DNA of 64,000 bases from NCBI GenBank assembly GCA_944325105.1, contig CALUYW010000001.1:1-64000 (forward strand). Reading direction: 5' to 3'. Positions 1-61,029 of this stretch are shown here, piece after piece. The first letter of the stretch is position 1; each line of letters starts with the position of its first letter. A program made the translations under genes and the position numbers. The stretch comes from Candidatus Gastranaerophilales bacterium (GTDB taxonomy: Bacteria; Cyanobacteriota; Vampirovibrionia; Gastranaerophilales; Gastranaerophilaceae). The notes under the pieces are model-generated. The model had not been told where the DNA came from, searched no databases, and saw only the letters and a list, made by a program, of their open reading frames with translations.

Positions 1-77
1 GTCTGCATTTGTTCGAATCCTCTGTTTTTTGATTTGCTATTGTGTAAAGGTTTACAAAAAATATGTCCACGAGAGGA
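1..77 (-). repeat. Second copy of the tRNA-Arg 3' trailer unit
   Basis: These 77 bases are identical to 110-186. On the minus strand the unit reads as the last 13 nt of the tRNA-Arg gene, then an A/T-rich trailer, then an antisense copy of the tRNA T-arm (plus-strand GTTCGAATCCTCT at 11-23). Only the last part of a tRNA is present before it (72-77), so this is not a second functional tRNA. The region between the two copies (78-109) is a degenerate filler. The array may continue beyond the left edge of the window. Confidence 0.85.
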
Positions 78-109
78 CTAGACGAGCCTTGGGCGAGGAT
101 ATGCAGCTT

Positions 110-186
110 GTCTGCATTTGTTCGAATCCTCTGTTTTTTGATTTGCTATTGTGTAAAGGTTTACAAAAAATATGTCCACGAGAGGA
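110..186 (-). repeat. First copy of the tRNA-Arg 3' trailer unit
   Basis: Identical to 1-77, offset 109 bp. It overlaps the 3' end of the intact tRNA-Arg gene. It contains the trailer and the antisense T-arm segment that pairs with the tRNA itself (see the inverted repeat at 120-193). Confidence 0.85.
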
Positions 187-246: not shown

Positions 247-289
247 ATATTTAAACTATTTAATTTTCAACCGTTCAGATGGATAGAAC
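221..289. repeat. Inverted repeat: tRNA-Arg D-arm and its antisense copy in the 5' leader
   Basis: GTTCTATCCATCTGAAC at 221-237 (antisense of the tRNA D-arm region) has a perfect 17-bp reverse complement at 273-289, with a 35-nt loop. Since the tRNA is on the minus strand, the 289-273 segment lies in the 5' leader and would pair with the D-arm of the nascent tRNA. The loop contains, in the sense direction, TTGAAAATTAAATAGTT, which recurs in the leaders of the other two tRNAs. Confidence 0.88.
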
Positions 290-349
290 CTGATTTGAAC
301 TGTCGCAAACTGTCGTTCACTCTGCCATCTGATACTTACGTGGACATAC
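290..349 (-). repeat. Degenerate tRNA-like 5' fragment upstream of tRNA-Arg
   Basis: In the sense (minus) direction this begins ATGTCCACGTA, matching the 5' end of tRNA-Arg with its preceding AT, continues with a mutated D-arm (TCAGATGG conserved), and ends in a T-loop-like GTTCAAATC. CAGATGG near its start can pair with CCATCTG in the antisense arm at 273-289. It lacks an anticodon arm and is not a functional tRNA. The remaining 350-460 stretch is AT-rich with nothing recognisable. Confidence 0.6.
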
Positions 350-9511: not shown

Positions 9512-9563
9512 ATTTTTACTAAAAAGTTTGTTGCAGATGTGTTGTTTTGTTGCATAAAAATTT

Positions 9564-9622
9564 GTCGACGGGGGTTTGCAAACTTGCTTTGCAACGGCAG
9601 ACTTGCCAATGTTCAAGTCCCC
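9564..9622 (-). repeat. tRNA-Leu(GAG) 3' trailer unit, half stranded by the element
   Basis: Minus strand, 5' to 3': an antisense T-arm segment (plus-strand GTTCAAGTCCCC at 9611-9622), a degenerate filler, then a copy of the tRNA-Leu 3' end (plus-strand GTCGACGGGGG at 9564-9574). A second, related trailer with TTGCATA lies to its left. GTTCAAGTCCCC is the perfect complement of the intact tRNA-Leu T-arm at 23147-23158. The layout equals the 3' units of the other two tRNAs, so this half belonged to the tRNA now 13.5 kb away. Confidence 0.7.
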
Positions 9623-9650
9623 ATAGTTTGGTTTAATTTTGCATAGAAAA

Positions 9651-9658
9651 AATGTCGA
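9651..9658. other. attL core of the integrative element
   Basis: AATGTCGA is shared with 23136-23143 at the tRNA-Leu 3' end; flanking bases differ on both sides. Left of it is tRNA trailer sequence, right of it is element sequence. Joining 9650-9658 to 23144 onward restores a continuous trailer plus tRNA 3' end. Confidence 0.6.
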
Positions 9659-9671
9659 TAAGCTCCCGAAT

Positions 9672-9821
9672 ATGGAACCTTTTGGCAATATAGTTGTATC
9701 TGAAAAAATCGCCGAGTCAACAGTAAGTATAAGTGTTTACAAAGAACTTGTCAGTATTGTGAAAGAGTCAACGACGCAATATTATAACATGAGAATAATT
9801 CTAGGGCTGGAGCGTGCTTAA
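9672..9821 (+). CDS. Possible small protein at the left end of the element
   Basis: 49 residues from ATG 9672. No ribosome-binding site is obvious. The C-terminal part (SVSISVYKELVSIVKESTTQYYNMR) reads like protein sequence, but the reading frame crosses into the attachment region if extended upstream. Kept at low confidence. Confidence 0.25.
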   Translation: MEPFGNIVVSEKIAESTVSISVYKELVSIVKESTTQYYNMRIILGLERA

Positions 9822-9863
9822 ATAATTACTATTTTATAGTAATATTAGAGATAATAACTCTTA

Positions 9864-10595
9864 ATGCGGATAATAAAGACAATGAATAAAATAAAAAGGT
9901 TTATATATAATCCAACTTTATGTATTACCCTTATATTAGTTGCTGCTATAATCTTAATTTTAGTCTATTTTCATAATGATGAATACAAGGCAAATATCGT
10001 TACAGAGCTAGCAAGCATACTTATTACAATCACCTTCATTGATGTAATCTTTGCGTTTAAGAAAAAACACGATACTGTAAAGAAACAAAAACTTGAAATT
10101 ATGCGATTAAATAACTTATTCTACATTTATCTCAATCAATATAAGGGGGAATATGATAGAATTTTTGGTAATGGTGCACTCAAATATTCAGATATAAGCA
10201 AACTTCTTAAACCATCACCTTCAATTATAAATTTATCCTCACAGCCTGCTTATATAAACTTCTTTAGAATTTGGATTATGTTATTTCATCAAGCTGAAAA
10301 TTTCATTGCGAAATTAGATTTAGGAGAGAAAACATTATTAATTGAGTTATTAGAGAATTTTATAATTGATAATATGCTTGTAGAAGAGTTGCGTGTATCT
10401 TTGGAGAATACACAAAAGCTAAATATGTTTAATGAAGATATAAAGATTTTAGAAAATGCCAAAGTAATACCGTGTATAGACGAAAACCATAATTTACATA
10501 TCAAGTATATTTTAATTTATAATCTTCTTATGAAAAATAATTCTTTCTTCAATGAGTATAATAGGATTATCGATACTTATAAAGTTAGCAAATAA
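9864..10595 (+). CDS. Membrane protein, unknown
   Basis: 243 residues (ATG 9864, or 9882 in frame). Two membrane helices occupy residues about 17-36 and 45-66, followed by a long soluble helical domain rich in Leu, Ile and Asn. This short two-helix anchor plus cytoplasmic domain is common among small exclusion and defence proteins, but no motif supports a function. Codon use is more AT-rich than the chromosomal genes. From 10596 to 10868 no gene is visible. Confidence 0.55.
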   Translation: MRIIKTMNKIKRFIYNPTLCITLILVAAIILILVYFHNDEYKANIVTELASILITITFIDVIFAFKKKHDTVKKQKLEIMRLNNLFYIYLNQYKGEYDRIFGNGALKYSDISKLLKPSPSIINLSSQPAYINFFRIWIMLFHQAENFIAKLDLGEKTLLIELLENFIIDNMLVEELRVSLENTQKLNMFNEDIKILENAKVIPCIDENHNLHIKYILIYNLLMKNNSFFNEYNRIIDTYKVSK

Positions 10596-10868
10596 TCCTA
10601 ATATCTATTGTATAAAGAAAAATTCTTGTACTATAGCCTTTAATTCTTTCTTGTCCCTCTAATATCAATACTTTATATATATTAGCTTTCACTTAAATAT
10701 AGAATTTTCTACTTGAATATATTGAAAATTTTATGCCACAACCCTTTAATTATAAAAACCATTGATTAATTATACTTATCAAATAGTGTAAATGGATGGC
10801 AACCGTAGTATATTTAAATTATTTGTATTATAATGTTGTATTGAGAAAAGTACAATAGAATTATAGAA

Positions 10869-11768
10869 ATGCTATATTATAGAGAAAAGATAATCCTTTC
10901 AATACTTGAAGAATTTAATGGTAAATTAAGCAGGACTCAGCTGCAAAAGTATTTGTTTCTTTTCACAAGAATGCAGAACGAGCCTTCTTATGATTTTATG
11001 CCATATAACTTCGGTTGCTATTCATTTCAAGCAAGTAAAGACTTAGAGCATTTACAAAAAGACCATTTAATATGTCATAATGAGGAATGGAATTTAGCAC
11101 CAGTTAAGAAATCGTATAAAGATATGCTTACTAATGAGGATAGATTAGTTCTATACAAAATCAGAAAGAATTATAAACATTTAAGTCAGAGAGAACTCGT
11201 AAGACAGGTATATTTAGACTATCCTTACTATACAATTCATAGCACAATAAAAGAGGAAATGCTTTCTAAGGAAGAACAGGCTTGTATTGATAAGTATATT
11301 GAGAATCATTACAGTTTAAATGATGAAACACCAACCTTATTTACTATAGGTTATGAGGGTATTTCTTTTGAGATGTATTTAAACAAACTCATTCAGTGCA
11401 ATATTAAGTTATTAATTGATGTGAGAAAAAACCCGTTCAGCCATAAATATGGATTTTCAAAAGGCATATTAGCTTCTATTGTAAATAAAATGGGGATAAA
11501 ATATGTACATATCCCTGAATTAGGCATTATAACAGAGAAGCGCAAGAAACTTGAAACAATAAATGACTACAAGGCATTATTTGATGAATATGAAAAAACA
11601 CTTCCAAGTAAAGAAAGTTACTTGCGTGAAATCATTGATTATATGGATAAATACAAGCGTATAGCCCTCACATGCTTTGAAAAAGATGTTAATAAATGCC
11701 ATAGAACACGAATAAAAGATTACATTGTGAACAATTTACTAAGTGATACAAATGTAGTAGAGTTGTAA
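10869..11768 (+). CDS. Winged-helix plus DUF488 domain protein
   Basis: 299 residues. The first 75 residues look like a winged-helix domain (REKIILSILEEFNGKLSRTQ...YNFGCYSF). From about residue 155 comes DUF488: FTIGYEGISFEMYLNKLI, DVRKNPFSHKYGFSK, GIKYVHIPELG, and the Cys pair CFEKDVNKCHRTR near the end. DUF488 proteins are often near DNA repair and defence genes, but their chemistry is not settled. A -10-like TATAAT lies at 10829. The next gene starts 1 bp after the stop, so the two form an operon and probably one system. Confidence 0.75.
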   Translation: MLYYREKIILSILEEFNGKLSRTQLQKYLFLFTRMQNEPSYDFMPYNFGCYSFQASKDLEHLQKDHLICHNEEWNLAPVKKSYKDMLTNEDRLVLYKIRKNYKHLSQRELVRQVYLDYPYYTIHSTIKEEMLSKEEQACIDKYIENHYSLNDETPTLFTIGYEGISFEMYLNKLIQCNIKLLIDVRKNPFSHKYGFSKGILASIVNKMGIKYVHIPELGIITEKRKKLETINDYKALFDEYEKTLPSKESYLREIIDYMDKYKRIALTCFEKDVNKCHRTRIKDYIVNNLLSDTNVVEL

Positions 11769-11769
11769 T

Positions 11770-12609
11770 ATGACTAAAACTAAAGTTCTGATTACGGTTA
11801 AAACTTATCCTAATATCTCATCTAAATATGATGAGCTTGTTTGCACAGCTGGTTTTCTTGAAGACGGGTCTATGATAAGGATATTTCCTATACCATTTAG
11901 GAAACTTGATTATGATAAACAATATGCCAAGTATCAATGGATAGAATTGGACTTGGAGAGATACACTAGAGATTTTAGACCTGAAAGTTATACTCCAACT
12001 GATAGGCTATTCCAGAATATTAAACCGTTAAACAAATTGAATACTGATAATAACTGGCAAGAACGAAAAGATATTGTGTTTAAAAAAGGTTACTACACTA
12101 ATCTAACAATGTTAATTAATGAAGCTAAAGACAAAGGTAAATCCTTAGCCGTATTCAAGCCTACAAAGATTTTGGATTTTGTTATTGAGTCTGTGAGTGA
12201 TGAATACGATAAGAAAAAGATTGAAAAGATTTTAAATCAAAGAGCTCAGTTGTCGTTATTTGAAACATACAAAGATAACTGTGAAGATTTGTTTGAAGTT
12301 GTCAAAAAGTTACCGTATAAATTTTCATACAGATTCGAGGATATTGAAGGTAGGGAAGCTACTTTGATGATAGAAGACTGGGAAATTGGTCAGTTATACT
12401 GGAACTGTTTGAAGACCTACGGAAATGAAGAAATTGCACTTCAAAAAGTAAAACAAAAATACCGAGATGATTTCATCAACAATAAAGACCTTTATTTCTT
12501 TATGGGAACAACGCAAAGATGGCATAATGTTGCCCCAAATCCATTCTTAATTATAGGTGTGTTTTATCCTAAATATCAAGGTCAAATAAAACTAAATCTT
12601 AATTTATAA
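11770..12609 (+). CDS. DUF488 partner protein, unknown
   Basis: 279 residues, starting 2 nt after the DUF488 stop. The N-terminal half is a beta-rich domain (TKVLITVKTYPNISSKYDEL, then DGSMIRIFPIPFR). The C-terminus contains FFMGTTQRWHN and NPFLIIGVFYP, which looks like a conserved core. I have a general impression that such proteins accompany DUF488 in mobile elements; no catalytic residues can be named. Likely the functional partner of the upstream gene. Confidence 0.6.
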   Translation: MTKTKVLITVKTYPNISSKYDELVCTAGFLEDGSMIRIFPIPFRKLDYDKQYAKYQWIELDLERYTRDFRPESYTPTDRLFQNIKPLNKLNTDNNWQERKDIVFKKGYYTNLTMLINEAKDKGKSLAVFKPTKILDFVIESVSDEYDKKKIEKILNQRAQLSLFETYKDNCEDLFEVVKKLPYKFSYRFEDIEGREATLMIEDWEIGQLYWNCLKTYGNEEIALQKVKQKYRDDFINNKDLYFFMGTTQRWHNVAPNPFLIIGVFYPKYQGQIKLNLNL

Positions 12610-12770
12610 TGTCAATATCCATTGTTAGAGTTTTCCTCAAGCAAATTTAGTTATAAATTAGCCCCTATCTCTTTAAGGTTAATGGTATTAGCTATATGTA
12701 ACCCCTTCTTATTTAAAAATTTTATTGAATAAATTACCAAAAATTTTAACAACTTGATTGTATCGAGTTT

Positions 12771-13118
12771 CTATTCTCCTTTTAAAATATCTATCCCCTT
12801 TTGAGCTTGTTTAAGTTGTCCGTAGTAATACTCAAGTTCATGTTCTGACTTTGCACTGTTAAGTATCTGTAGTGCCTTTGTGTAATAAGGGCTATCATTA
12901 GAGGATATATGTTCAAGATTAAGTCCTACATCTTCAATACTAAGGTTTAGTGCCTTTAATATCTTGGTTAGTGTTGTGTATGTAGGAAAGTAAACACCTG
13001 TCTCTATTTTGGAGATATGTTTTTCATTTGCTCCTGCAAGTTCTGCTAGTTGAGCCTGTGTTAAGTTCCTTGCTTTTCTTATCTGCTTTAATTTTTGTCC
13101 GAAACTATTTCTAACCAT
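12771..13118 (-). CDS. XRE-family transcriptional regulator
   Basis: 115 residues from ATG 13118, chosen for AGAGGAG 5 nt upstream (a longer frame to 13169 exists). A helix-turn-helix occupies residues about 6-60 (FGQKLKQIRKARNLTQAQLA, ISKIETGVYFPTYTTLTKIL). The C-terminal 50 residues form a helical region that may dimerise. It is divergent from the cargo cassette starting at 13286, and the 170-bp gap with GTATAC-like sequences could hold its operator. Confidence 0.85.
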   Translation of the reverse strand: MVRNSFGQKLKQIRKARNLTQAQLAELAGANEKHISKIETGVYFPTYTTLTKILKALNLSIEDVGLNLEHISSNDSPYYTKALQILNSAKSEHELEYYYGQLKQAQKGIDILKGE

Positions 13119-13285
13119 AATACTCCTCTTACTCATTCTATTTGAGTAAGTTGTTTTATTAAACCGCAAAACAGGATATAATTTTATTTAATATTCGTAT
13201 ACAATAGGATACTTTTCGCATTTTTGTGTTACTATTTCTGTATGAGTTGAAATGTGTTCGACGAAAATAGGAAAGTAGGTGTGAA

Positions 13286-13876
13286 ATGACAGAAGAAATG
13301 CAAACCAAAACTTGTCCTTATTGTGGTGAGGAAATTAACGTGAATGCCATCAAATGCAAGCATTGTGGAGAATTCCTTGAAGAAAAGAAAGAAAAAGTAA
13401 CAGGAACTAAGGCATGTCCCTTCTGCGGAGAAGAAATTTTAGCAAGTGCGGTTAAGTGTAAACATTGTGGAGAATTTCTTAATAAAACGATTGATAGAAG
13501 TGCTATATCCGGAAAATTTGCAAGAGTAGACGTAAATGATAACTGGAAGAAAAGATTTAAAATAATTGACAATGTTGTAATTAATGGAGCTTGGTGGAAA
13601 TATAACCCACTATTCTGGAAAACATCCTTAAATGAACGTTGGAATATGAGTTGTGCCATATATTTCAGTGATTTTTTAAGTACATTATCTGCCTTTTTAT
13701 TCGGAGCTTTTTATTATCTATTTAAAGGTATGTGGCTTAAGTTCCTTATATATTCAATTATTATACTTTTGATTGCAGGTATTACTGGTGGCACGGGCTC
13801 GGCATTCTGGATTATATTCCCAGCTCTTGCTCCTTATGATTACTACAGACTAAAAGTATTGGGAAAGCAATGGTAA
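13286..13876 (+). CDS. Double zinc-ribbon membrane protein (DUF2628-like)
   Basis: 196 residues. Two consecutive zinc ribbons (CPYCGEEI...CKHCGEFL and CPFCGEEI...CKHCGEFL, residues about 9-68) are followed by a C-terminal membrane region with FLFGAFYYLFKGMWLKFLI, which matches the DUF2628 style. It opens a run of six same-strand genes (13286-16586). The two ribbons and a third at 14945 are near-duplicates. Function unknown. Confidence 0.7.
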   Translation: MTEEMQTKTCPYCGEEINVNAIKCKHCGEFLEEKKEKVTGTKACPFCGEEILASAVKCKHCGEFLNKTIDRSAISGKFARVDVNDNWKKRFKIIDNVVINGAWWKYNPLFWKTSLNERWNMSCAIYFSDFLSTLSAFLFGAFYYLFKGMWLKFLIYSIIILLIAGITGGTGSAFWIIFPALAPYDYYRLKVLGKQW

Positions 13877-13904
13877 TTTAAAAAGCTCAACAATAGGAGA
13901 TTTT

Positions 13905-14675
13905 ATGAAAATAAGAAATATAATCATAGTATTAATGATATTTTTATCTTTTAGAAGTTATGTATTAGCTGAGCAAAAACAGTACATTCAAGTTATGCAT
14001 GAAAATAAGTATCAAAAACAAAGTGATACAGTGAAAACCAAAAGTGTTCCCGCAAAATCGCAACAAGGTTTAAATAATGAAGAGTGTAATCGCTATATAA
14101 ATGAAGCCTTAAAGCAAATAGACCAAAATAATCTATTTGGAGCACAAACCAGTTTAACAAGAGCATTGGATATAAATCCTAACAATGTCAAAGCTCTTAA
14201 AATTCGAGGACAAGTAAAGAATAGATTGGGAGACAACGTTGGAGCATTGCAAGATTTAAACAAGGCAATATCACTAAAGCCAGACGGCGATTGTTATTAT
14301 GCAAGAGGAGTTGTGAAATTATCAACCCAAAATTATCCTGAAGCAGTTAATGATTTTAGCAAAGCTATTGAGGAAAATAAAAGCGATGATATGGCATATC
14401 ATCAAAGGGGATATAGTTACTGTCTTTGGGGTAAGTCTACAGGAAATAACTCATATTTTGCAGCTGCTCTGTATGACTTTAATAAATCTATAAGTTTAAA
14501 CCCGAGCAATACAGAATCTTATCTTTATAGAGGTATGGCAAAAGCAGAATTAAAAGGGGCAAATGCAGGGTTGGCAGATATAGAGTATGCAATGAATGAA
14601 TATCAAAGAATTGGTGATAGTAGTGCCTATCAACGCAGTGTTGAGATTTACAATTGGATTAAGAAAGACTATTAA
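13905..14675 (+). CDS. Secreted TPR-repeat protein
   Basis: 256 residues with a signal peptide ending about residue 23 (SYVLA). Four to five TPR units follow (NNLFGAQTSLTRALDINPNN, VGALQDLNKAISLKPD, YPEAVNDFSKAIEENKSD, FAAALYDFNKSISLNPSN). TPRs mediate protein binding. The predicted mature N-terminus EQKQYIQV is nearly the same as that of the next gene product (EQKQYLQV), which suggests a shared origin or a shared sorting or binding segment. Confidence 0.75.
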   Translation: MKIRNIIIVLMIFLSFRSYVLAEQKQYIQVMHENKYQKQSDTVKTKSVPAKSQQGLNNEECNRYINEALKQIDQNNLFGAQTSLTRALDINPNNVKALKIRGQVKNRLGDNVGALQDLNKAISLKPDGDCYYARGVVKLSTQNYPEAVNDFSKAIEENKSDDMAYHQRGYSYCLWGKSTGNNSYFAAALYDFNKSISLNPSNTESYLYRGMAKAELKGANAGLADIEYAMNEYQRIGDSSAYQRSVEIYNWIKKDY

Positions 14676-14685
14676 GGAGGTAAAA

Positions 14686-14952
14686 ATGAAAAAGAAGTTC
14701 CTAATTACAATCTCATTAGTCCTTATAGGCTCTTTTTGCATGTGTGCCTATGCAGAGCAAAAGCAATATCTACAAGTAGCAAAGGAGAAAGAGATAAAAG
14801 AAAGACAAATTCAACAAGAACATCAGAGAGAAAGGACTCAACGTTTAATGGATAGAGTTTATGGAGATAGAAATCCCTATGTTGAGTTCAAAACGGATTA
14901 TAATCCTGATGAATTACCTAGAAGATGTTGGGGAGGACCTTGCCGTGACTAA
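14686..14952 (+). CDS. Small secreted protein
   Basis: 88 residues from ATG 14686, which has a strong AAGGAGG 6 nt upstream. Signal peptide of about 22 residues, then a predicted mature start EQKQYLQV shared with the upstream TPR protein, a charged helix and a Cys-containing tail (RRCWGGPC). The stop overlaps the next gene by 8 nt, suggesting coupled translation. Confidence 0.65.
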   Translation: MKKKFLITISLVLIGSFCMCAYAEQKQYLQVAKEKEIKERQIQQEHQRERTQRLMDRVYGDRNPYVEFKTDYNPDELPRRCWGGPCRD

Positions 14953-15682
14953 TGAAACAAAAAAGTGTCCCTATTGTGGTGGAGAGATAAAAGCAGTAGC
15001 ACTAAAGTGTAAACATTGTGGAAAATTCTTAGAAGAGGTAAAGTCTGGAGATATTATATATCAAGAACCATTAAAGAATAATAAAGGTAGAAATATTGGT
15101 ATAGGGTGTGCTTGGTTCTTAGGAATTTTCATAATTTTAGGTATAATAGGTTCGTTTTTACCTGAAACTGAAACGTATAACAATACAGATAATATAAGTT
15201 CAGATTACAATACTGAACAAGCACAAGAAGTAAAAGAACGTGTAACAGGTACTTATTCTGGCTTTGGTGCTATGGATGTTGCCTTTTCTAATCTGGGCGG
15301 ACAAAATGCAGGATGTGCACAGAGTGGTGCAGGTAAATCTCTTGTCAATGAAATTGAGAAAAAATTTGCAGAAAGTTCTCCTAACAAAGACCAAGTTCTT
15401 TATTCTATATCAAGCTATAATCCACGATTAAAGTTCCATGTGTCTAATCCTCGCTGGGCTGAAAATGTATATAATCCTGACCTATGTATAGCTGATATAT
15501 CTTTTAAGAATTATAAGCCTGATACCATAGCTGGATATAGTGGCTATGGAGAAAATGCAGAGCCCTATACAATAGATGAAGCTCAATTTAGAGTAAGTTA
15601 TTATGTTTCAGAACTCAGTGGAAAATACAAAGCAAGAATAAGCAGTATTAGAAGTGATGTTACAAAAGGTTATTATGAATAA
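14945..15682 (+). CDS. Zinc-ribbon, single-membrane-span protein with outer domain
   Basis: 245 residues from GTG 14945, chosen because GGGGAGG lies at good spacing and this puts the zinc ribbon (CPYCGGEI...CKHCGKFL) at the N-terminus. A membrane helix follows (IGIGCAWFLGIFIILGIIG), then a linker rich in Asn, Ser and Asp and an outer domain of about 150 residues. The topology (cytoplasmic ribbon, outer sensor-like domain) suggests signalling across the membrane, but this is inference. Confidence 0.65.
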   Translation: MTNETKKCPYCGGEIKAVALKCKHCGKFLEEVKSGDIIYQEPLKNNKGRNIGIGCAWFLGIFIILGIIGSFLPETETYNNTDNISSDYNTEQAQEVKERVTGTYSGFGAMDVAFSNLGGQNAGCAQSGAGKSLVNEIEKKFAESSPNKDQVLYSISSYNPRLKFHVSNPRWAENVYNPDLCIADISFKNYKPDTIAGYSGYGENAEPYTIDEAQFRVSYYVSELSGKYKARISSIRSDVTKGYYE

Positions 15683-15698
15683 TTAAAGGAGAACGATT

Positions 15699-16121
15699 AT
15701 GAAAAGATTTTTATCAGCATTGTTATTTATTTCAACTATTTTGGGTGTGTCTTTGACTCCAGCATTAGCTGAAAACTTTACGTATAAGGTATATAATCCA
15801 AAAACGAATAAAACAACTATTGCAGTATTTGGAACAGTTACAATAACAGAAAATCAGTATTTATGGGGTTTTTATACAAAAGATGGTCAACCTCTTTGTG
15901 TTGCAAGTCTTAATACTAATAAAAATTCTCAAGGGCTTATTGGAGGCCAGTGCACAGACATCGGGGCTTTTATTCGCTTTATGAATGGTGAAAATATTGA
16001 CTTTTCTAAATATGAACTTGGTTGGAGAGAATTAAGTCAAGATACTTTTTATAGGGAAATGAATTCTATTAGACAAGAAAGGGCAGCTCAAGGTAAATAT
16101 GAATATAAGGGAAGTAATTAA
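15699..16121 (+). CDS. Secreted protein, unknown
   Basis: 140 residues with AAAGGAG upstream and a clear signal peptide (MKRFLSALLFISTILGVSLT then PALA). The mature part is beta-rich at first (VYNPKTNKTTIAVFGTVTIT) and ends in a helix (MNSIRQERAAQGK). Not recognised. It lies 3 bp before the next gene. Confidence 0.6.
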   Translation: MKRFLSALLFISTILGVSLTPALAENFTYKVYNPKTNKTTIAVFGTVTITENQYLWGFYTKDGQPLCVASLNTNKNSQGLIGGQCTDIGAFIRFMNGENIDFSKYELGWRELSQDTFYREMNSIRQERAAQGKYEYKGSN

Positions 16122-16124
16122 AAT

Positions 16125-16586
16125 ATGAAAACATTCTTATTTATAGCAAGTGTAGCATTTTTATTGGCAGCGTTATTGAACTTTGCAAACATTGCTCAAG
16201 CTAATGAAATTCAAGGTATAGTAGATACAGATAATCCGCAAATTGCATATCCGGTAAGAGACAATGCTTTTGTAATAATTTTACAGCCAGTTCCTGATAA
16301 TTCCGGTGATTATACAATGACAATATGTAATAAACAATCTCATTGTCGTCAGACTTCAATGTTATCAAGAGAATTAAGGTATATAGGTTTATTTATTGAA
16401 GATATGAAACCCGTTTTGGATTTTGAATTAAATCGGAAATTAACGGGAAAACAATGGCAGCAAGGTCAAAACAAGTTCCGTGAACTGTATACAGATTATA
16501 TGAATATGTACGATAAAATATTTGGAGTATTAGAGGTGGTTATACCACCCGAAGTGAAAATAAATGTTACTGACGTGAAAAAGTAA
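16125..16586 (+). CDS. Secreted protein, unknown
   Basis: 153 residues, signal peptide of about 26 residues (NIAQANE). The mature part contains a Cys pair (MTICNKQSHCR) and a helical second half. Last gene of the cargo cassette; a 14-bp perfect hairpin follows. Confidence 0.6.
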   Translation: MKTFLFIASVAFLLAALLNFANIAQANEIQGIVDTDNPQIAYPVRDNAFVIILQPVPDNSGDYTMTICNKQSHCRQTSMLSRELRYIGLFIEDMKPVLDFELNRKLTGKQWQQGQNKFRELYTDYMNMYDKIFGVLEVVIPPEVKINVTDVKK

Positions 16587-16632
16587 ATATACTGTTTCCC
16601 TAAGAGGTAGGATAGATTATTGTATAAGTTCA

Positions 16633-16663
16633 TTACAGAGGATGGCTTTGCCATCCTCTGTAA
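16633..16663. terminator. Perfect 14-bp hairpin between convergent genes
   Basis: TTACAGAGGATGGC, loop TTT, GCCATCCTCTGTAA. It sits between the cargo cassette (+) and the broken resolvase gene (-). It has only a poor T-run, so it may be a bidirectional terminator or mRNA stabiliser. Confidence 0.6.
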
Positions 16664-16689
16664 ATAAGTAAACAAAACAAAAGGCTAAA

Positions 16690-17302
16690 TCAATCTTTTT
16701 GAATGTACTTTAAAAAGTTATTCAAATTACCTACTGAGCAAGCAAACTGCTTGGCAATAATTGTTTTAGGTACTTTTAGTGATAACAGTTTTAGAATATC
16801 TTCTTTATGCTCATCAAGCTTTGATTTTCCCTTACCTTTAGGTCTTCCTAACTTAATACCTGCAATCTTTCTGGCATGGAGAGCTTCTTTTGTTCTCATG
16901 CTAATCAATTCTCTTTCTATCTGTGCAACCAGTGCAAAGATTGTACTTGTAACGGTTGCAGTTATACTTTCTTCACTGTTACAGAAGTTTTCTTTTAGTG
17001 AATATAGAGTGATACCCTTATCTTTGGTTACTTTTATCACTTCCAGTATTTGAGTAATAGACCTTGCAATTCTTGACAATTCAGGAACTATCAGCACATC
17101 TCCAGATTACATCTCCAGATTGCATGTTATCAATCAAAGCTCCGAGTTTTCGCTCTTTATAGTTGATTTTTCCTGAACACTGTTCTTCCGTAAATTCAAC
17201 ATTACCAAGTTTTAAACGGTTAGCAAACTGTAGTATATCAATTTTATTCTTTTCAGTGTCTTGTTCTAGTGTAGATACTCTAATAAAAGCGTATGTTGTC
17301 AT
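16690..17302 (-). pseudogene. Serine resolvase/invertase, frameshifted
   Basis: The N-terminal part (17302 down to about 17110) has MTTYAFIRVSTLEQDTEKN, with the catalytic Ser in RVST. The rest (from about 17097 down) has LSRIARS, EESITATVTSTIFALVAQIE, RTKEALHARKIAGIKLGRPK and a C-terminal helix-turn-helix. Together they make a normal resolvase of about 200 residues. A 13-bp tandem duplication shifts the frame; removing one copy restores QSGDVLIVPELSR. The reading frame is therefore broken as given. Confidence 0.88.
17096..17121. repeat. 13-bp tandem duplication that frameshifts the resolvase
   Basis: ACATCTCCAGATT occurs twice in direct succession (17096-17108 and 17109-17121). Loss of one copy restores the resolvase frame, so the change is recent and could revert by slippage. 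Confidence 0.92.
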
Positions 17303-17425
17303 AATTTTACCTATTTTAATAAAAACCTCAATATCTTATTTTCTTTGTCTGTGTTCAATCAATGAAATACAGACCTTCTTATGTCATAAATTCGTGCAAT
17401 AAATACGGTCGTTTTTATCGCTTAT

Positions 17426-17833
17426 TTATGCCTCATATATTTTTCTATAATGGGCTATGGTTTCTGGTCTGAAATTAAAATCAAGGTTTAGTTCTGGAAG
17501 TTCTTTAAAGAGGTGTTCAAGGTCTATATATCCAGCCTCAAAGTATCCTAAGCCCAAGCTTGTATATCCAAAATGTTGATTGTATCCACTTTTATCAATT
17601 TCTGTTATATAAATATCAACATTTCCCCAAAAGTAATGTAAAACGGGTTTAATTTCTTCCCCCTTATCCTCTGTTTCGCAGATTGCAGGAGCTTCCTTTA
17701 TAGTCATTGCCATATTATTAGCTATTCTTTTAAAATATTCTTTCTCTTTGCCGATAAGTCCAGCAATGAAACATTTAGCTTGAGCTGTTGGCATAAATTT
17801 TAAAATTATATTAATATCACCTTGATTTATCAT
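17426..17833 (-). CDS. DUF2958-like protein
   Basis: 135 residues from ATG 17833, which follows AAAGGAG. The stretch DIYITEIDKSGYNQHFGYTS, then LGLGYFEAGYIDLEHL, and a terminal FRPETIAHY matches DUF2958 (xxTWLxSExD, FGxxxLGxGxPExGYxxLxEL, HFxPxxTLxxY). Members are common in plasmids and mobile elements; function unknown. It lies downstream of the small coiled-coil gene in a two-gene unit. Confidence 0.7.
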   Translation of the reverse strand: MINQGDINIILKFMPTAQAKCFIAGLIGKEKEYFKRIANNMAMTIKEAPAICETEDKGEEIKPVLHYFWGNVDIYITEIDKSGYNQHFGYTSLGLGYFEAGYIDLEHLFKELPELNLDFNFRPETIAHYRKIYEA

Positions 17834-17861
17834 TGTTCTTACTCCTTTTATTCGAGGTTGC

Positions 17862-18152
17862 TTAGGCAACCTCGAATTTAATGTAACTTGATACTTTTAA
17901 TAATGCCTTGTAAAGTTCTGCATATTTGGTTTTCAAAGTTTTAGTATCAACATTGTTTCTGGTGATTTCTTTAAGGGTAAAAGTGAAAGCACCAGCTTGA
18001 AGTTCTGTAACGTTTGCTTGATTCATAACCTCTTTAACTTCTGCTATTTTTTCATCCCTTAACTCTTTCAATTCAGCTATTTTTAAGTCTAAAGATTTGA
18101 TAACTTTTGCATTGTCTTCAAGATTGATGTTTGTTGTAATTACCTTTGTCAT
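17862..18152 (-). CDS. Small phage-type coiled-coil protein
   Basis: 96 residues from ATG 18152, which has AAAGGAG upstream. Residues about 15-45 form a coiled coil (SLDLKIAELKELRDEKIAEV), and the second half has TFTLKEITRNNVDTKTLK. Resembles small host-nuclease or ssDNA-related phage proteins in layout, but no family is certain. It is divergent from the HTH gene at 18302. Confidence 0.6.
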   Translation of the reverse strand: MTKVITTNINLEDNAKVIKSLDLKIAELKELRDEKIAEVKEVMNQANVTELQAGAFTFTLKEITRNNVDTKTLKTKYAELYKALLKVSSYIKFEVA

Positions 18153-18301
18153 AGTTTTATCTCCTTTGTTTTTGCTTACATATACATAATACACGATTTA
18201 GTATACAAAGTCAATAGTTTAATAAACTATAACGTTACATTTGTTTACATATATATTGATTAAGTTCACTTTATAGTGTATTCTATGAATAGAGGTAAAT
18301 T
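18153..18301. promoter_or_regulatory. Divergent control region of the element
   Basis: This 149-bp AT-rich gap separates the minus-strand unit (17426-18152) from the plus-strand HTH gene. It holds TTGTTTACATAT (about 18240-18251), repeated at about 19685-19696 before the replication gene, and a related GCTTACATATAC near 18175. Repeats in two control regions are plausible regulator sites. Confidence 0.4.
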
Positions 18302-18547
18302 ATGGATAATGAATTAAAAGCAAAAGAACTTGATGAGCAAGCAACAGAAGCCCTTAAAAGGCAAGTTAAGTCCATGATTGTTGCTAAAGGCTATACTATG
18401 GAAAAACTTGCTGAAGAGCTTAACAAAAAGTATTATACAAAAGAGAGCAAAGCTAATTTGTCAAATAAACTGAAACGTGGCTCTTTAAGGTACATCGACA
18501 TGCAACGAATTGTAGATATACTTGGATATTCTTTAAAAATTGAATAG
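18302..18547 (+). CDS. Small XRE-like/DUF6471-like DNA-binding protein
   Basis: 81 residues, start preceded by AGAGG. A short helix-turn-helix is visible (SMIVAKGYTMEKLAEELNKK, then ANLSNKLKRGSLRYIDMQRI, VDILGYSL). This arrangement is typical of compact phage and element regulators. It probably controls the genes around the divergent region. Confidence 0.7.
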   Translation: MDNELKAKELDEQATEALKRQVKSMIVAKGYTMEKLAEELNKKYYTKESKANLSNKLKRGSLRYIDMQRIVDILGYSLKIE

Positions 18548-18781
18548 AGGCTACCTGTTTTGAAATAAAGAAAGTTTCACTAAAATAGGCTGGGAAAAAG
18601 CCCAGTATACTGAGAATTTTTACCCCATAGAAATATAAATTATAGATTAAGTTTGACAGGGTTAAAACTTAATCTTATCTTGGAAAATAGTGTTTCTGTT
18701 GTTTCTTACCAATGATAGTGGTTAAACTAATATAAATTGATTCTACTGAAATTATTTCATGTTTGCGATATAACAAGGCAT

Positions 18782-19660
18782 ATGAACTATATTTGTAATA
18801 TTAATCTTTCTATATTAACTTACCTTTTATTAGGTAAAGAAGTTTTATTTAAGGTAAGAGACAAGGAGTCGAAGGCTCAGCTCATAACTTTTTGTAGTGT
18901 GTTAACCTCTAATTTCCCTTGTGTTGAGTGCAAAAATGTTACAAGTGGAATAAAGGTTACTTGTAATGATTTCGACCAATTAAGAGCATTTTTAAAAGAA
19001 TATTGTAACTTATATTGCAATGGAGAATTAGTTGAAGAAAACAACTCTTTCGAGTCTCTTGAGTCTCTTAATTGTGAACTTATTAAAATGGCAGAAGATT
19101 TAAGGACTAACAAGAAACGATATATAATTGACAAAACAAAGTTTACCCCGTTGATATTAGCTAGATACCTTGAAAATAATGAGTTTATAAAGGATATGAA
19201 TATTAGCCTTGCACCAGAAGGGGATATGCCTTATCCAATGGAGCTGTACGAATACAATCCATTAGGAGAATGTATTTATGCTAGGTACTGGCAAGACTAT
19301 TTTATTTCTAAATACACGCTTGATATGGAGTGGTATCTGAGTAAGTTTAATGGTACTACTAGCAAAACTAAGAAGGATAAAAAGTGTAAGCAATACCCCA
19401 AGCAACAACAGAAATTATTGGATGTTATAACAGATTGGGTAATCTCAGAGAACGAATATAAAATACATTCCGATAGGTTATTTAGCAGAGCAAAATTAAT
19501 AAAATTGAAACAAGCTAGTAAGGATATGGCAATATCACGCTTGAACGAATATTATCGAAATATAAATAATACCAATATTCCGTTACTTAAAAAGAATAAA
19601 AACACAGATTGTTACGAGATTTCAAAAGAGTTTATTCTGATAACGAAAACTAACGACTAA
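18782..19660 (+). CDS. Unknown element protein
   Basis: 292 residues from ATG 18782 (AAGG just upstream; a longer frame starts at 18737). Two parts are visible: an N-terminal region with several Cys (NFPCVECKNVTSGIKVTC) and a Lys-rich C-terminal half with helices. No motif recognised. It precedes the replication gene, so a role in replication or its control is possible. The gap 18548-18736 has only a small hairpin (CTGGG/CCCAG) and no gene. Confidence 0.5.
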   Translation: MNYICNINLSILTYLLLGKEVLFKVRDKESKAQLITFCSVLTSNFPCVECKNVTSGIKVTCNDFDQLRAFLKEYCNLYCNGELVEENNSFESLESLNCELIKMAEDLRTNKKRYIIDKTKFTPLILARYLENNEFIKDMNISLAPEGDMPYPMELYEYNPLGECIYARYWQDYFISKYTLDMEWYLSKFNGTTSKTKKDKKCKQYPKQQQKLLDVITDWVISENEYKIHSDRLFSRAKLIKLKQASKDMAISRLNEYYRNINNTNIPLLKKNKNTDCYEISKEFILITKTND

Positions 19661-19697
19661 TTTATTATAAATTAAAATTTACAATTGTTTACATATG

Positions 19698-19723
19698 CCT
19701 GCTGTTCAATACTAAACAGCAGG
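19698..19723 (+). terminator. Hairpin before the replication gene
   Basis: CCTGCTGTT and AACAGCAGG form a 9-bp stem with an 8-nt loop, followed by TTAATTTTAT. It may end the upstream transcript, or be part of a replication origin. Confidence 0.5.
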
Positions 19724-19809
19724 TTAATTTTATGCAAACTAACCAAGTTAGAAAGTCGTTAGGAAGTTAGTTTAGAAGCGGTCTAATTAGAATATAGGAG
19801 ATATATTCT

Positions 19810-21303
19810 ATGGCAAAAACTTCTAGAACAAATAAGAAAACTAATTCCGTAACTCATGATATATCAAAAACAGGTGATGTCAAAACCAATGATTTTAATC
19901 TTGATAAAGACAAAGCACCAGCTTTGAGTACTCTTAACACACAGATTAAGACTGTACAGGGAATTATCGATAACGATATTGCAACATCCGTACGACCAGA
20001 ATTTGATAGATTGAGAATGGGCATAAATCTTGGAATTTGGGGAGATAGGATTAATTTTGTCGATTACGCAATGGAAGATGTTGAAAATCCTAAAGAGCCA
20101 CCATCATACCTTGATAAACATGAAAACAATACGCCTTTAAGACGTTCATTTGTGTCAAATGATATATCCGAGAATTTTAAATTTGATACATCAGATTTAT
20201 TTGATACAGAAGAGGAATATCAAGAATATATACAGGCACAAAAAGAGAAGAAAGAGAATAGTCCGAAACCAGAGCCAGAACCAGATATTTTTAGAGATTT
20301 TAGTGTAAAACGTCGTATTAGATACAATGACTACAAGGGAGTTGTTGGTCTAAATAATATGTTTCTGTACCAAGGATATTTTGTGATTGACATTACTGGT
20401 AAATGGATGGCTGATATTGGTGTATTAGGGAGCTTACATAAGGATAATATTAAAGCTGCACTGCAAAAGGTTGTAGATTTAGATATAGTAAATTTCAATA
20501 TTGATAAATTTATCAGGCACGCCCAAGTCTTTCTTTGTGATTTGGTAGTTGACATTACACTGGAATCAAAAGAGCAAGTTTGCAAATATATAGATGGAAT
20601 CAGCTCATTTTTTCCAATATCGACAAATAGACACAATATCGCTAAATACGGTAGACATGGGCTAATGTTAAAGTCGAAAGCACAAAAGGCTGGTTTTTCG
20701 CTTGCAATTTATTCTAAAGGGCAAGAATTGAATTTCAGCAAGAGAAGAATAACAAAAGCAACGTTATATACAGAGACTATTGGACATGAAGGAATTCAGC
20801 TGGCAGAACGTACATTACGTTTTGAACTAAAACTCTACTCTTTATCGAGCATACGAAAGAATCTTAACATCGATAAGGATGAACCTCGTGTATTATATTT
20901 ATCTAGCGTCCTTAATAGTACAGAAGCAGCCCTATTTAAGCAGGTAGAAAAGTTTTGCGGAAATCTTGAAGTATTGTCGGAACGACTTAAATGGATGAAA
21001 GCCATAGAAACAAGTCATAATAATATGACACTTCAAGAAATATTTGTGGCAGAAAGATTTATCGAGATACTTAAGGACAATAATTTTGATATTAGTATAG
21101 TTCAAAGTCACATAAGAACTGAGTATGTAAATGCTACAGATACAGAACTTGAAGAGTTCAATTGTTTGGCTAATCTGCGTAAAAATATTCTGACATTCTT
21201 GGTTTATTGTAAACCTAAGTCTGTAACAATAATGCTGGATACCCTTCGTAAGTTACAGGCTTATTATCAAATAGTAACGGAAAAAGAAGGTGCAAATGGC
21301 TAA
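19810..21303 (+). CDS. Phage II/X-type replication initiation protein
   Basis: 497 residues, start after AGGAGA. A disordered N-terminus (about 160 residues) is followed by a part that fits phage/plasmid replication protein II/X: GYFVIDITGKWMADIGVLGS then LHK, the segment RHGLMLKSKAQKAGFSLAIY then SKGQEL, and LAERTLRFELKLYSLSSIRK. These proteins nick DNA for rolling-circle replication. Active-site residues could not be placed with certainty. The next gene starts 8 nt before its end. Confidence 0.55.
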   Translation: MAKTSRTNKKTNSVTHDISKTGDVKTNDFNLDKDKAPALSTLNTQIKTVQGIIDNDIATSVRPEFDRLRMGINLGIWGDRINFVDYAMEDVENPKEPPSYLDKHENNTPLRRSFVSNDISENFKFDTSDLFDTEEEYQEYIQAQKEKKENSPKPEPEPDIFRDFSVKRRIRYNDYKGVVGLNNMFLYQGYFVIDITGKWMADIGVLGSLHKDNIKAALQKVVDLDIVNFNIDKFIRHAQVFLCDLVVDITLESKEQVCKYIDGISSFFPISTNRHNIAKYGRHGLMLKSKAQKAGFSLAIYSKGQELNFSKRRITKATLYTETIGHEGIQLAERTLRFELKLYSLSSIRKNLNIDKDEPRVLYLSSVLNSTEAALFKQVEKFCGNLEVLSERLKWMKAIETSHNNMTLQEIFVAERFIEILKDNNFDISIVQSHIRTEYVNATDTELEEFNCLANLRKNILTFLVYCKPKSVTIMLDTLRKLQAYYQIVTEKEGANG

Positions 21304-21487
21304 GAAAATCACTATTGATTTTGTACCTAATAATGAGACCGTTAATGTTGCCGTGGATAGTGCCTTATTAACACAGTTAATGGTTACAATAACACAAATT
21401 GGTATCAGAGTTGATAATCATAAAAGTAATAATGATATAATTGTAGAGGAGAAAGAAAATGACGAAAAATCTCAACAACAAAGGTAG
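21296..21487 (+). CDS. Small protein between rep and recombinase
   Basis: 63 residues from ATG 21296, overlapping the replication gene by 8 nt. Starts MAKKITIDFVPNN and ends with an acidic, Gln-rich tail. Its 3' end overlaps the recombinase start by 29 nt. The three genes are probably cotranslated. Function unknown. Confidence 0.5.
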   Translation: MAKKITIDFVPNNETVNVAVDSALLTQLMVTITQIGIRVDNHKSNNDIIVEEKENDEKSQQQR

Positions 21488-23156
21488 AAAAATTGTAGTA
21501 GGTTACGGTAGAGTAAGCTCTGCTGAACAGGCTAGTAGCGGACTTAGCCTTGATATGCAACGTGAACAATGCGAACTTAAAGCGAAGAAAAGTGGTTGTG
21601 AATTTGTTTATTTTGAAGATGCTGGAAAAACTGGAGCTAATATCAATAGGAAAGGACTTAAAGCCTTATTAAAGTACGTCAAAGAACATCATAATAAGAT
21701 TGCTTATGTTGTTGTATGGAAATTAGATAGACTCTCTCGTTGTCAAGAGGATTTCTTTGCTGACATTTTAAGACCTATTAGAAAATATGATTGCACTATC
21801 GCTAGTATTATGGAAAATTTTGATGATATTAGAAAAGTAAGAAAAGTTCTTTTGGGTGTATATATAGGTCAAACAGAAGATGAATTGGACAATATAAAAG
21901 ATAGAACGAGTTCTGTTTTAAGTTCTAGAGCCAAAAATGGCTACCAGTTAGGAAAAGCTCCTGTTGGATACTTGAATGCTCGTGATGAAAACAGGCATGG
22001 AATTATAATCCCTGACCCAGAGAAGAAAGATTACATTAAACATTGTTTCGATTTGTATGCAACAGGCTTATTTTCTTATGATAGGGTTGGTAAAGAGCTT
22101 GCTAAATATGGATTTGTTGACGGTAGTGGTAAACCTTACCCTAAGAAACGCATTGAAGACATTTTAAAAAGTCCTGTATACATTGGTAAAGTTGTTCACA
22201 AAGGTGAAGTTTATGACGGTAAGCATGAAGCGATAATATCTGATGAGTTATTTTATAGGGTTCAATTACTCTTAAAAGGTTCTGAGAGTCGGAGTCCTAA
22301 GGGTCTGGTTTATAATTATTCAAACTTTATTAAGTGTGCTAAGTGCGGTTACAATATGGTTGGAATAACCAAAAGAGGGGCTCATAATAGTGGAACTTAC
22401 GTGTATTATCATTGCTCCAACTACACAAAAGCCCATAAGAAAGAGAAAAACATTAATGAAAATTTGATTGATGAAGCCATTCAAGAGGTAATTGAAAGCT
22501 TTGATATTACCGAAAAAGAAATTAAAGTTATCAAGAAAGAAATATTTAACGCTATTGATGACTTGAAGAAATATGAGCATAAGTCCATAGAGGAACTTAG
22601 AAAGCAATATGATGATGTTGTAGATAGCATTACATCACATTTAATTCAAAAGAATAATGATATTAGCGATATTACCAGAGGTGAAATTCTACGCAAATTA
22701 GAAGCTAAGAAGGAAAGTATTGCTAGAAATATAGCATACCTAGCAGAGAACTCCAAAGATACAACAAAACGTATCAGTATATTAATAGACTTTGCTAATC
22801 GAATTCCTGAACTTTATCTTAAAGCTACATTGGATGAAAAACGTTTGATATTAAATACTATTACTGAAAGTATTACTTATGATGAAGATACTAACAAATT
22901 GACAGTAAAATTAAGACCTGTATTTGAACATTTGAGGCAATTAAAACTTGCTAAAAAACAAGAATTTTCAGCAGACATTGAAACCTTGACTGGAACCCTT
23001 GAAACACGCTCAGAGCAAGCTAAACAAGCACTTAAAAATAGTGCTTTGAATTTAACCAAAATAACAGTAATTGGAACCCGCAAAAGTCGCTTGAATACTA
23101 AAATAGAGCCTCTTCATAAAGGCTCTAAAAAGTTTAATGTCGACGGGGGGACTTGA
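21459..23156 (+). CDS. Large serine recombinase (integrase)
   Basis: 565 residues, start after GAGGAG. The N-terminal catalytic domain has YGRVSSAEQASSGLSLDMQR (nucleophile Ser in RVSS) and KLDRLSR. The recombinase domain (GKAPVGYLNARDENRHGIII, then PKKRIEDILKSPVYIGKVV) and a zinc ribbon (CAKCGYNMVGI...YYHC) follow, then a coiled coil and tail. This is the integrase that would insert and excise the element. Its last codons, encoding NVDGGT, read through the attR core and into the tRNA-Leu gene in antisense. Confidence 0.93.
   Translation: MTKNLNNKGRKIVVGYGRVSSAEQASSGLSLDMQREQCELKAKKSGCEFVYFEDAGKTGANINRKGLKALLKYVKEHHNKIAYVVVWKLDRLSRCQEDFFADILRPIRKYDCTIASIMENFDDIRKVRKVLLGVYIGQTEDELDNIKDRTSSVLSSRAKNGYQLGKAPVGYLNARDENRHGIIIPDPEKKDYIKHCFDLYATGLFSYDRVGKELAKYGFVDGSGKPYPKKRIEDILKSPVYIGKVVHKGEVYDGKHEAIISDELFYRVQLLLKGSESRSPKGLVYNYSNFIKCAKCGYNMVGITKRGAHNSGTYVYYHCSNYTKAHKKEKNINENLIDEAIQEVIESFDITEKEIKVIKKEIFNAIDDLKKYEHKSIEELRKQYDDVVDSITSHLIQKNNDISDITRGEILRKLEAKKESIARNIAYLAENSKDTTKRISILIDFANRIPELYLKATLDEKRLILNTITESITYDEDTNKLTVKLRPVFEHLRQLKLAKKQEFSADIETLTGTLETRSEQAKQALKNSALNLTKITVIGTRKSRLNTKIEPLHKGSKKFNVDGGT
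23105..23126 (-). terminator. Possible terminator of tRNA-Leu(GAG), supplied by the element
   Basis: AGAGCCT and AGGCTCT form a 7-bp stem with an 8-nt loop inside the last codons of the recombinase gene. On the minus strand it lies just after the tRNA and is followed by ATTTT, so it could replace the terminator that was displaced by integration. Confidence 0.4.
23136..23143. other. attR core of the integrative element
   Basis: AATGTCGA, identical to 9651-9658. It covers the last bases of the tRNA-Leu acceptor stem, which is regenerated intact by the integration. The overlap of recombinase stop, att core and tRNA 3' end is seen directly. Confidence 0.6.
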
Positions 23157-23218
23157 ACCCCCACAGGTCTCCCCACATGCACCTCAAGCATGCGCGTCTA
23201 CCATTCCGCCACGTCGAC
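23138..23218 (-). tRNA. tRNA-Leu(GAG)
   Basis: Minus strand: acceptor GTCGACG/CGTCGAC, anticodon stem CATGC/GCATG around loop TTGAGGT (anticodon GAG), long variable arm TGGGGAGACCTGT as in class II tRNAs, and T-arm GGGGG-TTCAAGT-CCCCC. Discriminator A, CCA not encoded. The 3' end is the insertion site of the integrative element. The 5' side carries two palindromic leader units. Confidence 0.95.
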
Positions 23219-23270
23219 ATTTAATAAACATTATTCAATTTTCAATCTGCCAACATGGCGGAATGGTAGA
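23197..23270. repeat. Leader unit 1 of tRNA-Leu(GAG): 15-bp inverted repeat
   Basis: TCTACCATTCCGCCA (23197-23211, antisense of the tRNA 5' region) pairs perfectly with TGGCGGAATGGTAGA (23256-23270). The loop of 44 nt contains the tRNA 5' end and, in sense direction, ATTGAAAATTGAATAATG. The bases 23206-23261 recur exactly at 23304-23359, but the outer arms differ there. Confidence 0.9.
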
Positions 23271-23299
23271 ATTTGAACCACGCACTCCACGTCTTCGCG
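23271..23299 (-). repeat. Core of a tRNA-like relic between the two leader units
   Basis: In the sense direction the sequence from 23309 down to 23256 starts TGGCGGCAAG, contains GTGGTTCAAATTC (T-arm-like) and ends ATTCCGCCA, so that TGGCGG and CCGCCA could pair as an acceptor stem ending in CCA. No anticodon arm is apparent. A tRNA-derived relic, not a functional tRNA. Confidence 0.55.
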
Positions 23300-23363
23300 C
23301 TTGCCGCCACGTCGACATTTAATAAACATTATTCAATTTTCAATCTGCCAACATGGCGGCAAG
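23300..23363. repeat. Leader unit 2 of tRNA-Leu(GAG): 10-bp inverted repeat
   Basis: CTTGCCGCCA (23300-23309) pairs perfectly with TGGCGGCAAG (23354-23363); the loop is the same 44 nt as in unit 1. The arm differs from unit 1 (CTTG instead of TCTACCATT), and its partner differs to match. This is covariation within the unit. Confidence 0.88.
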
Positions 23364-23389
23364 TAACCAACCACGCCGGCAATATTAAA

Positions 23390-60736: not shown

Positions 60737-60828
60737 ATTGAAAATTAAATAGTTAGTTTTGGGCGAGTGGTGCTATCCGAGTAGAACGAGGATATGAGGA
60801 CTCTCAAAGACCAGTTTCGCCTGAGCAA
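60737..60828 (+). repeat. 92-bp tRNA-like leader unit, copy 1
   Basis: Begins ATTGAAAATTAAATAGTT, followed by GGGCGAGTGG, the 5' end of tRNA-Leu(UAG). Then a degenerate core with a small TATCC/GGATA hairpin, and TTTCGCCT that can pair with GGGCGA as an acceptor stem. It is identical over 92 bp to 60829-60920. It is not a functional tRNA. Confidence 0.85.
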
Positions 60829-60920
60829 ATTGAAAATTAAATAGTTAGTTTTGGGCGAGTGGTGCTATCCGAGTAGAACGAGGATATGAGGACTCTCAAA
60901 GACCAGTTTCGCCTGAGCAA
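60829..60920 (+). repeat. 92-bp tRNA-like leader unit, copy 2
   Basis: Exact copy of 60737-60828. It is followed by the same leader and 5' tRNA end again (60921-60954), which then diverges into the true tRNA. The perfect identity indicates a recent or continually homogenised duplication. Confidence 0.88.
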
Positions 60921-60964
60921 ATTGAAAATTAAATAGTTAGTTTTGGGCGAGTGGCGAAATTGGT
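60902..60964. repeat. Inverted repeat: tRNA-Leu(UAG) D-arm and leader antisense
   Basis: ACCAGTTTCGCC (60902-60913) pairs with GGCGAAATTGGT (60953-60964) over 12 positions with one G-U, across a 39-nt loop holding the conserved leader and tRNA 5' end. Confidence 0.75.
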
Positions 60965-61029
60965 AGACGCGCTAGATTTAGGATCTTGTGCAGCAATGCG
61001 TGGGGGTTCGATTCCCTTCTCGCCCACCA
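60945..61029 (+). tRNA. tRNA-Leu(UAG)
   Basis: Acceptor GGGCGAG/CTCGCCC, anticodon arm CTAGA-TTTAGGA-TCTTG (anticodon TAG, one T-T mismatch), long variable arm TGCAGCAATGCGT, T-arm GGGGG-TTCGATT-CCCTT, discriminator A and encoded CCA (61027-61029). Confidence 0.95.

Follow-up and report, generated by a model that had tools for sequence, protein, structure and literature searches.

In several related Candidatus Gastranaerophilales, about half of the tRNA genes across the genome are flanked by small repeat units of a common anatomy. The units are mirror images on the two sides of the gene, are built from the end of the tRNA that they adjoin, and change in step with it. They point to an undescribed DNA-copying process around tRNA genes, and the evidence favours DNA-level rewriting, by template switching and repeat recombination, over selection for an RNA hairpin. 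The analysis started from a window of 64,000 nucleotides (assembly GCA_944325105.1, contig CALUYW010000001.1, positions 1 to 64,000), in which a first-pass annotation had described two tandem leader units with covarying arms at tRNA-Leu(GAG).

Repeat units in the window

The block of 56 bases that the first-pass annotation saw in both units is an exact direct repeat, with copies at 23206-23261 and 23304-23359 (start-to-start spacing 98). Each unit also forms the perfect inverted repeat that had been described: TCTACCATTCCGCCA/TGGCGGAATGGTAGA pairs over 15 bp (23 nt if G-U is allowed), and CTTGCCGCCA/TGGCGGCAAG over 10 bp (18 nt if G-U is allowed). Folding of the two inverted repeats on the tRNA strand gave z = -10.2 and -6.3, respectively. 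What had been taken for the left arm of unit 1 does not belong to the leader: tRNA-Leu(GAG) spans 23137-23219, and 23197-23219 is its 5' end (ARAGORN, Rfam). The features of the locus are as follows.

23137-23219, minus strand: tRNA-Leu(GAG) (ARAGORN; Rfam RF00005, 57.6 bits)
23197-23219: tRNA-Leu(GAG) 5' end, formerly taken as the left arm of unit 1
23220-23247, minus strand: 28-bp pre-tRNA leader with the ATTGAAAATTGAATAATG motif, tRNA-adjacent copy; identical copy at 23318-23345
23248-23270, minus strand: antisense arm of the proximal unit, TCTACCATTCCGCCATGTTGGCA in tRNA sense
23271-23303, minus strand: hairpin insert of the proximal unit, CAAGCGCGAAGACGTGGAGTGCGTGGTTCAAAT in tRNA sense; homologous inserts occur within the genus
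23304-23317, minus strand: direct copy of the tRNA 5' end, TGTCGACGTGGCGG, exact copy of 23206-23219
23318-23345, minus strand: second 28-bp leader copy
23346-23381, minus strand: degenerate distal unit, antisense arm at 23346-23363

The true tandem unit is 98 bp long (23220-23317). Read in tRNA sense, it begins with a copy of tRNA nt 1-13, continues with the hairpin insert and the tRNA 5' end in reverse complement, and closes with a copy of the 28-bp leader; the segment upstream of it (23318-23381) contains the second leader copy and a degenerate partial unit. The whole region therefore reads, in the same sense, fabF end, degenerate partial unit, leader, unit, leader, tRNA-Leu(GAG). We call the leader motif ATTGAAAATTGAATAATG boxA-like from its resemblance only. 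The proximal antisense arm (23248-23270) pairs with tRNA nt 22 to 1 through 20 Watson-Crick (WC) and 3 G-U pairs, and the distal arm (23346-23363) complements the neighbouring pseudo-copy GGCGGCAAG, not tRNA-Leu(GAG). The two arms differ in step because the proximal one complements the tRNA (AATGGTAGA) and the distal one the adjacent pseudo-copy (CAAG). A second tRNA gene in head-to-head orientation was considered as the source of the right arm and rejected; there is no second intact tRNA, and the units are tandem.

Units were present at all three tRNA genes of the window. Those outside the array described above are listed here.

60761-60944, plus strand: two identical 92-bp 5' units upstream of tRNA-Leu(TAG) (tRNA at 60945-61029); copies start at 60761 and 60853, arms at 60810-60821 and 60902-60913
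248-346, minus strand: 5' unit of tRNA-Arg(CCT) (tRNA at 172-247); t5 copy at 325-346, antisense arm at 273-289
1-171, minus strand: 3' units of tRNA-Arg(CCT); antisense T-arm at 120-132, tRNA 3'-end copy at 63-76; of the second 3' unit only the start, with antisense T-arm at 11-23
9562-9657, minus strand: displaced 3' unit of tRNA-Leu(GAG); tRNA 3'-end copy, insert and antisense T-arm

The last of these lies 13.5 kb from its tRNA in the window and adjoins it in genomes G006 and G014; it is displaced because an integrative element lies between. This is probably a 13.5-kb element covering 9650-23140. At one end, a large serine recombinase (21459-23156) with Resolvase, Recombinase and zinc-ribbon domains runs into the tRNA-Leu(GAG) 3' end; the far end carries a short ATGTCGA repeat. 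Beside the recombinase is a replication-protein-like ORF (19810-21303) with a weak Phage_CRI/G2P match just under the Pfam cut-off.

Anatomy and spread of the units

A 5' unit begins with tRNA nt 1 to about 11-19. An insert inside or close to the D-loop comes next, often with a piece of nt 17-28 after it; the complement of about nt 28-6 and a leader copy complete the unit. The 3' unit is its mirror image: a trailer copy, the T-arm complement, often a direct T-arm stretch, a T-loop insert, and then about nt 58 to the tRNA 3' end. Units are about 80-220 bp long and contain no genes. Their antisense arms, usually 12-18 nt, are mostly WC-paired to the tRNA, both upstream (1106 WC, 32 GU, 11 AC and 27 other cells) and downstream (426 WC, 8 GU, 4 AC and 18 other). 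At the Arg-TCT and Phe units, the direct strand passes straight into its own complement.

In 25 of 33 arrays the units were of equal length and 94-100% identical; this identity, seen in two-unit arrays, indicates recent amplification. Distal arms in tandem arrays generally complement the tRNA rather than the pseudo-copy that they face, so the local hairpin is not the thing that is kept. The CTTG/CAAG pair reported earlier is real, but it is an exception belonging to the distal remnant at Leu-GAG, and the notion that every unit forms a perfect local hairpin with its neighbour is false for most distal units.

To survey the units, the tRNA loci of nine genomes were tested for four own-end features per gene: upstream, the gene's own 5' 12 nt and the complement of its own 5' half; downstream, its own 3' 12 nt and the complement of its own T-arm region. 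At least one feature was found at 17/32 tRNA genes in G000, 20/33 in G014, 10/18 in G007, 18/31 in G029, 20/40 in G047 and 27/41 in G053, counts that are minima given the strict detection thresholds for short arms. The features were nearly or fully missing from G020 (0/32), G082 (0/30) and G064 (2/32). With the ends of other tRNAs of the same genome as a control, each feature was scored at 0-3.9%. The own 5' 12-nt copy lay upstream of 13 of the 32 tRNA genes of the window's genome, against 0.11% with other tRNAs' ends, which excludes chance. The unit-rich genomes are related Candidatus Gastranaerophilales in which about half of the tRNA genes are flanked. Units occur at most tRNA types, and which types bear them varies between genomes, which means that turnover is fast. 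The genomes are largely metagenome bins, and arrays often lie at contig ends. A contig scan with the exact core returned matches mostly in unrelated GC-rich genomes. The earlier view of a leader peculiarity of one tRNA was thus too narrow, and the genome-wide, mirror-image occurrence of the units rules out a plain leader hairpin.

We compared the tRNA-Leu(GAG) locus beside fabF across genomes. Within the genus it is preceded by no unit (G012), one unit, or two or more, and in other genera the same place holds units with different inserts. Pairing between arm and tRNA is kept in the unit-bearing genomes of the genus; in G007, a C-to-T change in the D-stem of the tRNA is matched by a G-to-A change in the arm. 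In certain other genera (G047, G053, G029) the pairing is weak or missing, and some units, such as that at Leu-GAG in G047, have no antisense arm at all. Arm:tRNA pairing is therefore not indispensable. Separately, a 190-bp 3' unit downstream of tRNA-Leu(GAG) in G004 (locus L008, about 1700-1895) ends in TACGACACCA. A tRNA-Leu variant of another species has this 3' end, a hint of interspecies transfer.

The gene-end copies resemble the scars of integrative elements. Integrative elements classically use the 3' ends of tRNA genes as attB sites, and tRNA fragments left by integration are well documented (PMC9897764). Like att duplications (PMC9897764), the units are partial direct copies of a tRNA end beside an intact gene, and such copies were found at many tRNA genes. 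The serine recombinase element (window 21459-23156) or other foreign DNA adjoins tRNA-Leu(GAG) in several genomes, and at L426 (1200-1620, G000:C17) an intact 5' unit with an insert of family A, described below, precedes a tRNA-Met cut at the anticodon loop, apparently by an integrated element. It is nevertheless very improbable that the units are tandem att repeats left after the loss of tRNA-targeting integrative elements. They are equally common at 5' ends, where they include leader copies, and they lie at most tRNA types. They are tiny, with no integrase or cargo between the copies. Nor would att duplication create a reverse-complement copy, whereas antisense arms are usual here.

Insert hairpin families

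Several families of inserts with conserved ends and loops reappear at different tRNAs and in different genera. Family A consists of ACTCTGCCG, a stem, a TRART loop, a stem and GAGAGG. Its stem covaries strongly: 221 of 240 cells were WC, against a mean of 139 and a maximum of 162 in shuffles. Among 102 distinct sequences, the eight inner pairs gave 755 WC, 6 GU, 0 AC and 55 other cells, 28 of the latter being a conserved G-G at pair 6. Of the order's 383 genomes, 320 contain the family A pattern, at up to 68 exact matches per genome; a reversed control pattern matched once. Even within one genus, g7, the number of matches ranges widely, with 35 in G101 against 1 in G020 and 0 in G098. Three genomes of genus g6 (G320, G143 and G200, with 68, 65 and 52 exact matches) are candidates for carrying an active agent.

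Near tRNA genes, family A pointed at the gene in all 20 places checked: upstream copies share the strand of the tRNA, and downstream copies are on the other strand. In one of these places the insert has a tRNA gene on either side, and we counted it for the downstream gene, of whose array it is part. At L449 (1500-1770, G053:C2), a 5S rRNA gene is followed by two tandem partial 5S copies, both interrupted by insert A in the orientation seen in tRNA 3' units. Insert A also occurs in palindromes away from RNA genes. At L435 and L441 (G029), both at contig ends and distant from tRNA genes, inserts A and B are adjacent within a longer palindromic repeat, CCCCTC/GAGGGG. Many units in the window's genus carry unrelated short inserts that are neither A nor B. 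Besides tRNA and rRNA, Rfam gave no match to units and inserts at the gathering score and no near-threshold match at a relaxed one. A viral origin of the inserts was set aside, as the loose patterns matched 3 and 112 viral contigs, probably mostly by chance.

The abundance of insert A in the order, its fixed orientation relative to the gene, its presence in the partial 5S copies and in palindromes away from tRNAs, and the patchy distribution of units and inserts would all suit mobile hairpin elements. Non-autonomous insert modules would enter the D-loops, T-loops and similar hairpins of RNA genes; insertion itself would duplicate the gene end with its leader or trailer, leaving the essential gene intact, and arrays would grow later. 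We regard this as rather unlikely. No transposase was identified, the Y1 transposase PF01797 being missing from the unit-rich genomes G000, G014, G007 and G047, a result that led us to reject a resident Y1/RAYT transposase as the agent. Units with unrelated inserts also count against it, and insertion alone leaves unexplained why arms and copies track the tRNA. The REP/BIME elements associated with RAYT (Y1) transposases are similar to insert A in being short covarying hairpins with conserved ends or flanks and many copies per genome; unlike them, the units are tied to RNA genes in a fixed orientation.

A tentative, broader reading is that an undescribed DNA-writing or mobile system recognises the hairpins of RNA genes and builds, amplifies and constantly rewrites mirror pseudo-copies on either end of most tRNA genes, and at 5S rRNA. 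On that reading, held just as tentatively, the conserved hairpin modules might serve as its signals, with Gastranaerophilales as the host.

Copying versus selection

The first-pass annotation had offered hairpin selection and a mechanism that writes one arm from the other as alternatives. The in-step change on which both were based is confirmed, also across orthologous loci: at positions where the tRNA differs between species, 5' arms were WC in both species in 33 of 34 comparisons (17 distinct events). The direct copies, too, keep to the sequence of their tRNA. At nt 1-5, which the antisense arm does not cover, the counts were 30 both, 7 one and 0 none; for the copies of the 3' end they were 138 both, 32 one and 2 none. 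These between-genome counts are not independent, owing to common ancestry, and are biased towards following, the copies having been detected by similarity to their own tRNA. Since the copies track the tRNA outside the paired region, copying explains the pattern and hairpin selection does not, and the arm-writing alternative fits better.

Mismatches in the arms were also analysed. A raw ratio of 32:11 for G-U over A-C had suggested RNA selection, an interpretation that we dropped when the excess shrank near expectation after composition correction and counting of each change once (27 G-U versus 8 A-C; about 62% expected; p = 0.32 and 0.04 in two classes). From the slight excess that is left, some RNA-level selection may still act, and some units may have an RNA function.

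As a control device, the antisense arm would be an anti-tRNA switch in the precursor transcript; it would control how read-through transcripts mature by pairing either with the tRNA copy of its own unit or with the 5' half of the true tRNA. The very stable alternative hairpins on the tRNA strand, the arms that keep pairing with their own tRNA across species, the boxA-like leader copies and the slight G-U excess speak for such a switch. We consider it improbable, however. On the 3' side the units are mirror images of those on the 5' side and have insert A on the opposite strand; this symmetry about the gene argues against a transcript-directed leader device; the Pro-GGG 3' unit lies beyond a strong terminator. 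Moreover, copies track the tRNA outside the paired region, distal arms generally mismatch their neighbour, some units have no arm, and a genome with units still has many tRNA genes that lack one.

In RNA genes, template switching is reported both as a source of perfect hairpins and as a means of maintaining them (PMC8794818). In the units, a template switch at the inverted repeats of the tRNA (sense, antisense, sense again) would use the sense copy as the template for the antisense arm, and recombination among the tandem direct repeats would keep copies and leaders uniform and multiply the copies. A paired change would then be one copying event and not two compensating mutations. A double template switch would fit the sequence of parts (sense, antisense, leader, sense), and insert A, which covaries almost without wobble intermediates, was counted for DNA-level copying. 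We put at about even the chances that the units arise and stay in step with the gene at the DNA level in this way. Three points weigh against this explanation. Template switching is general, yet units are missing from G020 and G082 and nearly so from G064; something lineage-specific is therefore needed. Recurring insert families with conserved ends and loops are not predicted by simple template switching. Concerted evolution by gene conversion covers the direct copies, but the inverted arms need an extra step. Own-tRNA specificity, change in step with the gene, mirror symmetry, anatomy and spread through the genome are observed; the enzymology, the reason for the restriction to some lineages and a possible selfishness of the insert modules are inferred.

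Several known systems share parts of the pattern. Downstream of E. coli tyrT lie tandem repeats, each with a copy of the tRNA 3' end (rtT RNA, Rfam RF00391). They are like the units in being tandem repeats 3' of a tRNA gene that carry its 3' end, but rtT is found at one locus, on the 3' side only and without an antisense arm, whereas the units lie on both sides of most tRNA types and have fold-back arms; RF00391 was unmatched in the loci scanned with Rfam. ODIRA-type inverted triplications arise by template switching at inverted repeats. They have the same sense, inverted, sense order, but span kilobases, whereas the units involve tens of bases and recur at RNA genes. In template-switch hairpins (PMC8794818), as is proposed for the units, an inverted arm is copied from a sense arm, giving multi-base compensatory change without wobble intermediates. 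Their hallmark, perfectly complementary arms that change in step, was found both in the 5' arms and in insert A, at the counts given above. Those hairpins are scattered events in RNA genes (PMC8794818), whereas the units are repeated, mirrored and own-tRNA-specific, lie at about half of the genome's tRNA genes, and have tandem arrays and common insert modules. No earlier description of such tRNA-end repeats was found in the open-access library searched.

As a repeat class spread through the lineage, the units shape tRNA loci, contig ends and integration sites. Among their inserts is a family of hairpin modules carried by most genomes of this abundant gut order. Covariation is conventionally accepted as proof that an RNA helix is functional. 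In these units it may come from copying and not from selection, with inverted and direct copies both tracking a functional gene. Thousands of tRNA-gene ends in hundreds of genomes make up a natural data set in which the origin of compensatory change is directly testable.
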